A stretch of 54,562 bases of DNA from NCBI GenBank assembly GCA_024641785.1, contig JAHECK010000005.1:1-54562 (forward strand), written 5' to 3'. How positions within the stretch are numbered: position 1 is the stretch's first letter; each line of letters begins with the position of its first letter. The translations under genes were made by a program, and so were the position numbers. This document shows, piece by piece, positions 48,033-52,114 of the stretch. Origin of the DNA: Flavobacteriales bacterium. Its GTDB lineage: Bacteria; Bacteroidota; Bacteroidia; Flavobacteriales_D; JAHECK01. The notes beneath the pieces are model-generated. The model had not been told where the DNA came from. It ran no database searches and worked only from the letters and a program-made list of their open reading frames with translations.

Positions 48033-48069
48033 GTCACACTTTGTCACGCTTTTGGTCACGCTATGTCAC
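48033..48069 (+). repeat. Four GTCAC direct repeats, candidate operator array
   Basis: GTCAC occurs at 48033, 48043, 48055 and 48065, spaced 10, 12 and 10 bases. The surrounding bases also agree (TTTGTCACGC, TGGTCACGC, TATGTCAC). The near-helical spacing places all copies on roughly one face of the DNA. The array lies 33 bases upstream of a perfect -7 box and just after the stop codon of a DNA-binding regulator gene. Confidence 0.65.
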
Positions 48070-48101
48070 AGCATATTTTCTTTTATCTTTAGGTATAAAT
48101 T

Positions 48102-48109
48102 TACTTTTG
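48102..48109 (+). promoter_or_regulatory. -7 promoter element (TACTTTTG) of the Ig-like T9SS protein gene
   Basis: Exact TAnnTTTG match, 17 bases before ATG 48127, giving a very short leader. The -33 region (TTATCTTTAGG) lacks TTTG, which fits a promoter needing an activator bound at the GTCAC repeats. Confidence 0.55.
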
Positions 48110-48126
48110 TCGCAAAATTTATACTT

Positions 48127-51081
48127 ATGAAAAATATATTTACAGTAACATTATTTTTAGTAATTACTACGCTAAGTTTCGCTCAGACGCTTACTTTAAC
48201 TGTTCCTTCGGGATTAACAGAACCTTATGAAGTTACACCCGGAACAGAAGTAACCGTTCAGTGGGATTATTTTAGTTCAGAACCTAGTTCAATGTTTAGT
48301 TATGGCTCTGAACCTGTATTGGGTGATTGGGGATTCTTCCCTAATCCTGACTGGAATGCTTATAGCACTTATATCGACAATGGTGATGGAACCTATGATT
48401 TCACATTTACAGTAAATGAAGAAGTGTGGTTATTTGGAGGATTTCAAACTTTTTTCGATTATACTTACTCTAATACCATTCATATTAATATCGCATCTGA
48501 TGTAGTCCTAGAATTTGAAGATGGTATTATATGCCCTAGTGGTAGTGAAACAGAAACATTGACTATTCTTGGATCTTACACGAGCATTGTGTGGTATCAG
48601 AACGGAGTATTAATTGATGGAGAGAACGCTTCAAGTTATCTTGCAACAAGTGCCGGAAGTTATTATGCAATTGCAGATGGTATTCAATCAAATACATTGA
48701 TAATTCAAGATTTGAGCATTGATTTCACCGGGATGTTAAATGTTGATGCTACAGAAATCACATTTACTGCTAGTGCAGGAATGGATGCTTATCAATGGTT
48801 CTCAGGAACAGACGAAGGTAATATGACCGCTATTCCAGGAGCAACTAACCAAGAATATACTGCTACGATTACAAGCATATTAACCTACTATCATGTAGTG
48901 GGAACGCTGGGAACTTGTGATGTTACATCTAATAACAATTCTATTGATGAGGGAATGTTTACTCCTCCATTAATAATAATGAATGCTGATTCTAATGAAT
49001 TCAATCAAGTATGTGAAGGAAGCCTTATTACCCTTAGCATTGACGCAAATACAGAGAATTTTACCTGGTATAAAGATGGTTATGAGGCTTACTATACAAC
49101 TACTTCAATTGATATTACTAGCATTTGGTCGACCGGAGAATTTTATGTGATTAGCAATCCATCCCAATGGCCTGAGATCACTTTACAATCAAATACAGTT
49201 AATGCAAGCTATTTTGACATAATTGAACCTGCTTTATTTGGTGCAAGTAATAACTCAATTCATTGTAGTGGAGAAGAAATAACTATTGATATTGTTGATG
49301 AAGGTTATACTTATGCCTGGTATGCACATACAGATTATAATTACGTAGAAGCTGATTTGATTGATGTTCCGTCAAATTCCTACACTTTTACTTTTAGTGA
49401 AGGAATAAGAATTACTGTAGTTGCAATGTTTCAAGGTTGTGAATCTTCAAGTACAGTAAATTTAAATAGCTATGCCCAGCAATCTATTTATGTTGGAATC
49501 ACAAATTATGATCAACAATTCCTTTGCACAGATAGCATTGCAAATATTGGACTTAATGCCTACAATGCAGTAAATTATACAGACTTTACATGGTATGAAA
49601 TGGACGGCTCTAACTGGGTTGAAATCACAGGAGAAGTTTCGAATTACTATGGAGCAAATGAACCTGGATTCTACAAATTACAAGCAACTTCAATTAATTG
49701 CCCGACTGCTATTGTTGAATCAAACGAATATCAAGTTAAAGATTATCTGGAACGACCATTAAATCTTTACGCTGATCAAACAGAGATCTGTTTAGGAGAC
49801 ACAGCTAATCTGAATATTTGGTCGTCTTCATGGACTTCTATTCAGTGGTTAAAAGGAGATATTCAAATTGGCAATAATGGATATGAAATGATTTATATTC
49901 CTCTTTCTGGTGCAGGTACCCAAAGCTCAACAAATGTTACCGAATTTAATCATTATGTGATTAAAGCAAGACATAATTCATGCCCTAATGGATTAAAAAT
50001 AACTTCAAATCCTGTTGTGATAAAACCCTCTGTTAATCCAAATGTAATTGTTGACCTAGATGTGAATAATTATCAAATTGCACTTTGGGATTCATCCATA
50101 TTCTACCTAGACTGTACTGGAAATTCAATGACACTTTCTATTGAAGATGTTTATGATTCATACCAGTGGTATTCAGTTCTATATGCAGGAATTGATGATT
50201 ATGAATTGGGTGAACCTATAGCAGGTGCAACATCAGACTCTGTAACCGTTATTGTAGATGTTCAATGGGTGACTGCAGAAGTGGAGTTAAATGGTTGTAT
50301 TGGATATACAGACCCTATTCTTCTTGATGGCTGGGCTTTTCTAGATCCTGTTGTTGCTTCTTATAATAATAATCAGATCTGTGAAGGGGATTCTGCTTTG
50401 GTTAATTTAGGATTTCCAGGTACATGGATCGAGTATTATTGGACATTAGATAACGTAATCATTGAAGATTCAAATAATGATAGTTTATGGGTAACTGAAC
50501 CCGGAGAGTATGTCATTTTCGCTTATCCAGAAGCATGCCCTACTGCATTGTTTACAAGTGGTATTGGCCCAACATTAGAAATTTTTAATGCCTTGATTTT
50601 TGAAGAAGTAGATGAGTTTGGAAATCCATTTTTTTATGCATATCCATGGCAAGGAGTCTTCGAATATCAATGGTATATTGATGGTGAACCTATTGAAAAT
50701 ACCTCTGAGATACCTGCCGTTTTATGGAAAGAAGGTTTACCAGGTGGAGAAATTACTGTTGAGATCATCAATACAGATGGATGCACTAGCCTCTCTGAAG
50801 GTTTTATGTGGGATCCTTCAGTTGGAATTTATGAGAATGATCTAGTTGATCTTACTATCTATCCAAACCCTAGTAATGGTATTGTAAATATTGATGGGTT
50901 AAATTCTCAGTATGCTACTAATATTAAAGTATATAATACTCAAGGAAAAGTAGTTCGAGTTATAGATGTATTCGAAGAAAAAATTAAAGTCGACATTAGC
51001 GATTTAAACAATGGAGTTTACCTTTTCAGAATTCAAGATTCAAAGGGAAATACGAATACTTATACTGTAAATAAGCTATAA
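48127..51081 (+). CDS. Ig-like-repeat surface protein with T9SS type A sorting domain
   Basis: The start is ATG 48127 (984 residues), directly giving a signal peptide MKNIFTVTLFLVITTLSFAQ; the track start at 48052 lies upstream of the promoter. The body is a series of beta-sandwich Ig-like units marked by xICxGxxxxL ... YxWYxxG patterns (VLEFEDGIICPSGSET, WYQNGVLIDGENASSYLAT, QVCEGSLITLSIDANTENFTW, EICLGDTANLNIWSS, QICEGDSALVNLGF). It ends in a type A sorting domain (LTIYPNPSNGIVNIDG ... LNNGVYLFRIQDSKG). No catalytic site is seen; an adhesin or surface-layer role is likely. Its promoter region carries the GTCAC array. Confidence 0.88.
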   Translation: MKNIFTVTLFLVITTLSFAQTLTLTVPSGLTEPYEVTPGTEVTVQWDYFSSEPSSMFSYGSEPVLGDWGFFPNPDWNAYSTYIDNGDGTYDFTFTVNEEVWLFGGFQTFFDYTYSNTIHINIASDVVLEFEDGIICPSGSETETLTILGSYTSIVWYQNGVLIDGENASSYLATSAGSYYAIADGIQSNTLIIQDLSIDFTGMLNVDATEITFTASAGMDAYQWFSGTDEGNMTAIPGATNQEYTATITSILTYYHVVGTLGTCDVTSNNNSIDEGMFTPPLIIMNADSNEFNQVCEGSLITLSIDANTENFTWYKDGYEAYYTTTSIDITSIWSTGEFYVISNPSQWPEITLQSNTVNASYFDIIEPALFGASNNSIHCSGEEITIDIVDEGYTYAWYAHTDYNYVEADLIDVPSNSYTFTFSEGIRITVVAMFQGCESSSTVNLNSYAQQSIYVGITNYDQQFLCTDSIANIGLNAYNAVNYTDFTWYEMDGSNWVEITGEVSNYYGANEPGFYKLQATSINCPTAIVESNEYQVKDYLERPLNLYADQTEICLGDTANLNIWSSSWTSIQWLKGDIQIGNNGYEMIYIPLSGAGTQSSTNVTEFNHYVIKARHNSCPNGLKITSNPVVIKPSVNPNVIVDLDVNNYQIALWDSSIFYLDCTGNSMTLSIEDVYDSYQWYSVLYAGIDDYELGEPIAGATSDSVTVIVDVQWVTAEVELNGCIGYTDPILLDGWAFLDPVVASYNNNQICEGDSALVNLGFPGTWIEYYWTLDNVIIEDSNNDSLWVTEPGEYVIFAYPEACPTALFTSGIGPTLEIFNALIFEEVDEFGNPFFYAYPWQGVFEYQWYIDGEPIENTSEIPAVLWKEGLPGGEITVEIINTDGCTSLSEGFMWDPSVGIYENDLVDLTIYPNPSNGIVNIDGLNSQYATNIKVYNTQGKVVRVIDVFEEKIKVDISDLNNGVYLFRIQDSKGNTNTYTVNKL

Positions 51082-51250: not shown

Positions 51251-51280
51251 TTTGTTCTATGCATGGGAATTATATATTTG
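51251..51280 (+). promoter_or_regulatory. Bacteroidota-type promoter of the IF-2-N-like gene
   Basis: TTTG (51251-51254) and TATATTTG (51273-51280) are exact -33 and -7 boxes with an 18-base spacer. The -7 box ends 21 bases before the ATG at 51302. Confidence 0.65.
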
Positions 51281-51301: not shown

Positions 51302-52114
51302 ATGCGTTTAGGTCAATTATCGAGAAAAATTAATGTCAAACCCACTGATATTATTGATTATTTAGACAAGGATCTGAAAGTAAAAATGAATAGTCATCTT
51401 AATTCGAAAGTAGAAGATCAATATGTTGATTTTATTATTTCTCATTTTTCAGTGAATAAAAAGGAAGAAGCAGTTAAATCAAAAGATAAAGAACCTCATA
51501 TTACTGAAAAGGAAGCTTCTGAAAAGAAGGAAAAAGAAGTTTCTGAAAAGAAAGAAAAAGTCAAAAAAACCAAAACGCCAGCGGAAATACCATTAGAAAA
51601 AATTGAGGAAGATAAAATTGAGACTATAAAAGCGAGCGCACAAAAATTAGATGGATTAAAAGTAATTGGCAAAATTGAGCTTCCTCCTCCACCTCCACCG
51701 GAAATGATCGAGATCGATGGAGTGATGTATGATAAGCAAGAAGTAAAGAAGCAACGAAAAGAAGAAAAAGAGCAAAGAAGAGCCCAACTTCAAAAGAGAA
51801 AAATTGAAAGTCCAAATAATCCTGAAGTAAAAAACCGCATTCATCCTCCTTTAGCTAAAAGACATTTAAGCTTCGAAGAAAAAAAAGAAGTGGATGATAA
51901 GGCCTATTTAAAGAGAAAACGGGTTGAAGAAAAATATCAAAAAGAAAAGCAGCGAAAACACTACGAAAAAATTCACTTATTAAAACCTGCTGCTAAGGGC
52001 GAAAAGAAAAAAACAAGCAAAAAAGTCAAGATCCAAGAACCTGAGATCATCATAGAAAGTAAGCCAAAACCTAAATCATTACTAGGGAAATTTTGGCGGT
52101 GGTTAAACACCTAA
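51302..52114 (+). CDS. Standalone protein resembling the N-terminal region of translation initiation factor IF-2
   Basis: The 270-residue protein opens with MRLGQLSRKINVKPTDIIDYL, which fits the IF2_N three-helix module. A Lys/Glu-rich low-complexity tract follows (residues ~58-110). The next part, ETIKASAQKLDGLKVIGKIEL, matches the linker wording seen before the GTPase of Bacteroidota InfB. A PPPPPP run then leads into EMIEIDGVMYDKQEVKKQRKEEKE and a very basic helical tail ending in SLLGKFWRWLNT. There is no G domain, so it cannot be a working IF-2. Its basic nature suggests RNA or ribosome binding. It is followed after 32 bases by a DUF481 gene and has its own consensus promoter. The IF-2 relationship was judged by eye only. 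Confidence 0.65.
   Translation: MRLGQLSRKINVKPTDIIDYLDKDLKVKMNSHLNSKVEDQYVDFIISHFSVNKKEEAVKSKDKEPHITEKEASEKKEKEVSEKKEKVKKTKTPAEIPLEKIEEDKIETIKASAQKLDGLKVIGKIELPPPPPPEMIEIDGVMYDKQEVKKQRKEEKEQRRAQLQKRKIESPNNPEVKNRIHPPLAKRHLSFEEKKEVDDKAYLKRKRVEEKYQKEKQRKHYEKIHLLKPAAKGEKKKTSKKVKIQEPEIIIESKPKPKSLLGKFWRWLNT

Follow-up and report, generated by a model that had tools for sequence, protein, structure and literature searches.

A probable stand-alone paralog of the IF-2 N-terminal domain with a putative membrane-targeting helix in Flavobacteriales and Cytophagales

We describe a short gene of Bacteroidota whose product is, judged from its sequence, very probably a paralog of the IF-2 (InfB) N-terminal part that stands on its own. 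The gene lies in a window of 54,562 nucleotides, by which we mean the whole stretch of DNA analysed (GCA_024641785.1, Flavobacteriales bacterium, contig JAHECK010000005.1, positions 1–54,562 of the forward strand; contig C202 of genome G000). It is complete from ATG to TAA and encodes 270 amino acids (51302..52114, + strand) in an intact open reading frame with full-length homologs. An earlier note on this DNA had taken it for a separate gene encoding only the N-terminal part of IF-2, and this description holds: the protein combines an N1 module with an InfB linker motif and has no G domain.

Domain content of the short protein

The first 50 residues (51302..51451, + strand) correspond to an IF2_N (N1) module, which was recovered by Pfam and by profile-profile alignment (hhalign) to InfB N1 and was modelled by AF2 with a pLDDT of ~97. 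The Pfam match of the window protein covered residues 1–33 and stayed below the gathering threshold (score 20.1 against 25.3, E=5e-4); the syntenic copy on contig C140, which is 59% identical, matched over residues 1–49 above that threshold (score 26.9, E=4e-6), and 16 out of 49 relatives matched IF2_N (PF04760) at E<=0.01. The N1 of the short proteins was aligned to InfB N1 with E=1.6e-23 and to InfB N2 with E=1.3e-5; the single, N-terminal module of the window protein is thus nearer to N1 than to N2. On these comparisons we assign the window protein to the IF2_N domain family, as the earlier note had anticipated when it suggested such a module at the start and a profile comparison with IF-2 N domains. 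A search of PDB sequences with the family profile returned six matches at E<10, all of them IF-2 and all weak (E 2.5–5.4).

Apart from IF2_N, nothing was detected in the window protein by Pfam, and NCBIfam gave no match. The lack of a G domain (GHVDHGKT), already remarked from the letters, was confirmed by both collections, which also revealed no domains II–IV, and no InfB-type N2 module preceding a G domain was found in this protein. The genome's own InfB (contig C70) contains N1, N2, the G domain and all remaining domains according to Pfam.

A linker motif shared with InfB

The N1 module is followed by a charged, low-complexity and fast-evolving linker (residues 51–105; 51452..51616, + strand) with low pLDDT after residue ~60, and then by the InfB linker motif ETIKASAQKLDGLKVIGKIELP (residues 107–128; 51620..51685, + strand), in which K120, K124, L127 and P128 were invariant among 65 sequences. 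The true infB was located on contig C70, with a second copy on C118, and both linkers contain a counterpart of this motif (ATIVARAERLQGPTVLGKIVLPEK in C70 and ATIKARAERLVGPTVLGRIVLPEK in C118).

With K[VI]x[GD]KI[DE]LP written as a strict degenerate DNA pattern, we searched 120 genomes of the order and obtained matches in 36 of them, with 0 matches for the reversed-pattern control. Among the 33 motif loci that were read, including a few from an earlier 8-genome run, 13 were InfB, 19 belonged to the short family (one cut by the contig end) and 1 was a chance match. As far as the sequences of these loci go, the LxGxKVxGKIxLP motif is therefore exclusive to InfB and the short family, bar that chance match, and the InfB-like wording that had been noticed in the linker is real and specific (32 of the 33 loci). 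We know of no partner for this InfB motif; the family singles it out, at ~20 residues, as a shared IF-2 feature. Many Bacteroidota InfB proteins carry KVxGKIxL twice (e.g. L001, L106, L116, L119 and L122), the first copy often ending in LDK and the second in LP, and the single copy of the short family is most like the second.

The hexaproline reported previously was also present (residues 128–133; 51683..51700, + strand); the run is retained as PPPPPP in the C140 copy and nearly so, as PPPPP, in genome G001. Most relatives read LPEP at this position and the proline run was restricted to close relatives of the window and a few others; sequence comparison thus identifies it as a local variant and not a family trait. 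EF-P is encoded in the genome, so EF-P-dependent translation of the window protein is plausible in this species.

Basic helix and C-terminal helix

The second half of the protein contains a basic helix ending in ...RKHYEK (residues 191–227; 51872..51982, + strand; AF2 pLDDT ~95), with Y221 conserved in 98% and K214 in 92% of the sequences. The protein terminates with the amphipathic Trp/Lys helix PKSLLGKFWRWLNT (residues 257–270; 52070..52111, + strand), in which W267 is invariant. AF2 placed a helix at residues 260–269 (pLDDT ~90), and the window sequence has a hydrophobic moment of 0.72 and a charge of +3. Across the family the median moment was 0.69 and the net charge +3, Trp was found in every non-redundant member, and 79% of members passed the amphipathic-helix cut-off versus 4.8% of other C-termini; the tail of the genome's own FtsA scored a moment of 0.70 by the same measure. 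A few members have a low net tail charge, or GAYDNY after the tail. The AF2 models follow one plan of ordered ends with disorder between them (confident N1, disordered linker, basic helix, confident C-terminal helix), and a distant Ohtaekwangia member showed the same plan, basic helix included. The basic tail of the earlier note was accordingly right as to its basic character and wrong as to a simple basic ending, since a conserved amphipathic Trp helix is terminal.

In its moment, positive charge and aromatic residues, the C-terminal sequence is that of an amphipathic membrane-targeting helix. The natural reading is that it probably serves as a membrane anchor, and it could instead bind a protein groove or rRNA.

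Distribution and phylogeny

We collected 106 short sequences of 237–358 amino acids (68 after removal of near-copies) from the window's own relatives, the order, the class and a named genome collection. By reading of the match tables, we counted 38 carriers among the 299 genomes searched in the order and 16 among 395 in the class, and the remaining matches were InfB. Checking for conservation, as had been suggested, showed that the gene is kept across at least seven families, with named carriers among Flavobacteriales (including Crocinitomicaceae and Vicingaceae) and Cytophagales (including Roseivirga, Fulvivirga, Ohtaekwangia and Chryseolinea). A phylum-wide genome draw, which overlapped the class draw heavily and so tested other lineages weakly, added no carrier outside the class. 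The gene was missing from many related genera and is therefore not essential for the phylum. The protein opens with the conserved block MRLGQLARKL...PN.K and closes with PK...GKF..WLN; the third block is the E.IKAPK..L.GLKV.GKIDLP motif, and the basic helix adds the conserved residues K214 and Y221.

A tree built from N1 and the motif (77 columns; L112, an InfB on a long branch, was omitted) united the InfB sequences in a single clade with 100/99 support and kept them separate from the short proteins, which thus look like an old paralog group and not like repeated recent truncations. The tree does not favour a recent duplication from the own infB; an AU test on the 77 columns did not reject the grouping of own InfB with own short protein (p=0.31). 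No earlier description of a short IF2_N family was found in the open-access literature searched.

Promoter, gene copies and selection

A predicted Bacteroidota-type promoter (51251..51280, + strand) precedes the gene, with TTTG at 51251–51254, a spacer of 18 nt and TATATTTG at 51273–51280, and the latter box lies 21 nt from the ATG. Such a box was present 10–45 nt upstream of 48 out of 61 family members (79%) and of 17 out of 201 other gene starts (8%), which indicates that transcription usually starts from the gene's own promoter with a short leader.

Genome G000 carries infB on contigs C70 (L001) and C118 (L002), and the short gene on C140 (L003) and C202 (the window). Paralogy of the two short genes within one genome was considered and rejected, because both share one order of flanking genes and infB, too, is present in two copies; the two copies fit two related co-binned strains (6.15% contamination) rather than a gene duplication. 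Between these strains pN/pS was 0.25 for N1, 0.12 for the motif and 0.10 for the C-terminal helix, compared to 0.59 (residues 51–105) and 0.55 for the linkers, and ~0.35 for the whole gene, with synonymous sites saturated. The sequence comparison thus identifies three constrained blocks under purifying selection.

Proposed function and alternatives

The homology, the motif in common with InfB, the conservation, the gene's promoter, the selection and the anatomy are established. From these we propose that the short protein may act as an adaptor or decoy, and we give a probability of about 0.4 to this mechanism as a whole, which takes in the partner, the binding of RNA, the docking on the membrane and the net effect. 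In the stand-alone paralog, the basic helix and the C-terminal amphipathic helix stand in place of the N2, GTPase and tRNA-binding domains. N1 and the motif would grip the partner of IF-2's own N-terminal domain, which by E. coli precedent would be the KH2/AR region at the C-terminus of NusA, with NusA bound to RNA polymerase during transcription, or otherwise the initiating 30S subunit, while the basic helix would hold RNA and the tail would dock on the inner membrane. As a result, transcription-translation complexes would be kept at the membrane, or the access of IF-2 to them would be limited.

A membrane-tethered mimic of Domain I is proposed because E. coli IF2 binds NusA through Domain I (N1 plus the following residues up to 90), which is both required and enough for this contact (PMC12297416). 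Cross-links between the two were located at residues 13, 50 and 88, with a predicted contact at KH2/AR1, and the authors consider the contact regions poorly conserved (PMC12297416). A further activity of the IF2 N-terminal region is that it drives condensation at cold temperatures (PMC11838494). In our genome the NusA gene lies beside infB, and the NusA C-terminus is weakly similar to the RNAP alpha-CTD (E=0.08). To our knowledge, the IF2-NusA contact is known in E. coli only.

The strongest alternative, close to the ribosome-associated regulator raised in the earlier note, is a soluble protein that regulates initiation or rescue on the ribosome; this reading also keeps an IF-2 partner and differs on which partner that is and on the role of the tail. 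N1 and the motif would then bind at the site of IF-2's N domain on the 30S subunit or on the pre-initiation complex, where they would either compete with IF-2 or help it, and the basic helix and Trp tail would lie on rRNA or a ribosomal protein; we regard this combination as quite possible but less than probable. The basic helix agrees with it, as do a motif and an N1 common only to IF-2, and so does a neighbour. ArfB is an alternative ribosome-rescue hydrolase, and in 11 Cytophagales loci (L049, L054, L055, L056, L060, L062, L074, L076, L103, L121 and L123) its gene was directly upstream on the same strand, the gap ranging from an overlap to ~370 nt. Three of these 11 neighbours were checked with the NCBIfam equivalog and scored above the cut-off, and in two further loci (L069 and L095) ArfB or a relative lay ~2 kb from the family gene. 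The adjacency hints at a connection with translation in Cytophagales; it is limited to that group, where the family gene has its own promoter, and thus does not establish a shared operon. Against a soluble regulator, the moment, charge and Trp content of the C-terminal helix are typical of membrane anchors and point to the membrane, and E. coli N1 contacts NusA and shows nucleoid-associated, not ribosome-associated, behaviour (PMC12297416), a precedent that by analogy points to NusA/RNAP rather than to the ribosome.

A membrane-tethered nucleic-acid binder, in which N1, as a small HTH/MerR-like fold, would contact DNA or RNA and the IF-2 partner would be lost, appears improbable. HTH and MerR DNA-binding domains were among the matches of a fold search with the full model, and one family member weakly matched MerR, but all fold matches were weak (best E 0.22), IF-2 ranked second and third (E 0.33 and 0.59), and the IF-2-specific motif conserved beside N1 argues for a shared IF-2 partner.

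The earlier note had also raised a relic of duplication, and a drifting infB remnant would agree with a homology that covers part of InfB. We consider this reading practically discarded by the intact frames in 106 collected sequences, the own promoter, conservation in at least seven families and a C-terminal motif of its own with an invariant Trp; the relaxed selection of a pseudogene or recent partial duplicate was not observed in the conserved blocks, where pN/pS was ~0.1–0.25. A spurious likeness due to low-complexity Lys/Glu, for which only linker 51–105 and parts of the tail would speak, is equally improbable, since N1 and the motif are not of low complexity, the motif is specific with a reversed control of 0, and N1 matches its InfB counterpart closely.

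Comparison with known systems

The short protein shares with InfB (PF04760 for Domain I/N1; TIGR00487 for the whole protein) the same N1 at the very N-terminus, a charged linker and LxGxKVxGKIxLP, whereas N2, the GTPase, EF-G_D2 and the IF-2 C-terminal domains are missing, an amphipathic Trp helix of its own is added, and the gene is separate, outside the nusA-infB locus. As a natural protein it resembles the artificial NusA-binding fragment of E. coli, IF2-alpha Domain I alone (PMC12297416). Only the short protein has a membrane-type tail, however, and its NusA binding is proposed by analogy. We know of no such natural stand-alone gene in E. coli.

The C-terminal helix of FtsA is a known kind of membrane anchor, and RNase E has an internal one. 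The putative anchor of the short protein is likewise a short, flexibly tethered helix of similar moment, but in many members it contains at least two Trp, and its net charge is higher than that of FtsA. In its way of working the protein may be compared to RfaH, a specialised paralog of the general expression factor NusG, in that it could divert a partner; the two are not homologous, and RfaH retains both NusG-type domains.

Bacteroidota do not use Shine-Dalgarno initiation. It is conceivable, though rather doubtful, that several of their lineages encode a protein devoted to membrane anchoring, a mimic of the IF-2 N-terminal domain that keeps RNA polymerase-NusA, or ribosomes in initiation, on the inner membrane. 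If so, it would be a built-in device coupling transcription, translation and membrane insertion, and a link of the expression machinery to the membrane would be relevant to the coupling of transcription with translation in bacteria that lack Shine-Dalgarno initiation. The role of IF-2 N1 is only now emerging, from NusA binding in E. coli and cold condensates, and a natural gene that encodes hardly more than N1, the Bacteroidota linker motif and a probable membrane anchor offers an independent handle on it.

Genomic neighbourhood

No universal neighbour gene was found across the family loci compared. In the window, the next gene upstream encodes a large T9SS-secreted protein with Por_Secre_tail and Ig-like repeats (48052–51081). 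A DUF481 protein gene comes after the family gene in the window and two close relatives, followed by a DUF2807 protein gene in the window and G001. A DUF1905/OmdA-type gene, not present ahead of the family gene in the window, occupies that position in C140 (L003:884-1402), and an ORF resembling this type is found there in the distant relative G032 (L012:512-1045). Finally, a DUF4268-like gene, recognised by eye, was located downstream at L101 and seven other loci, mostly ~0.8–1 kb from where the family gene starts, and a PPIase-like gene, also named by eye, recurred upstream in six other loci.
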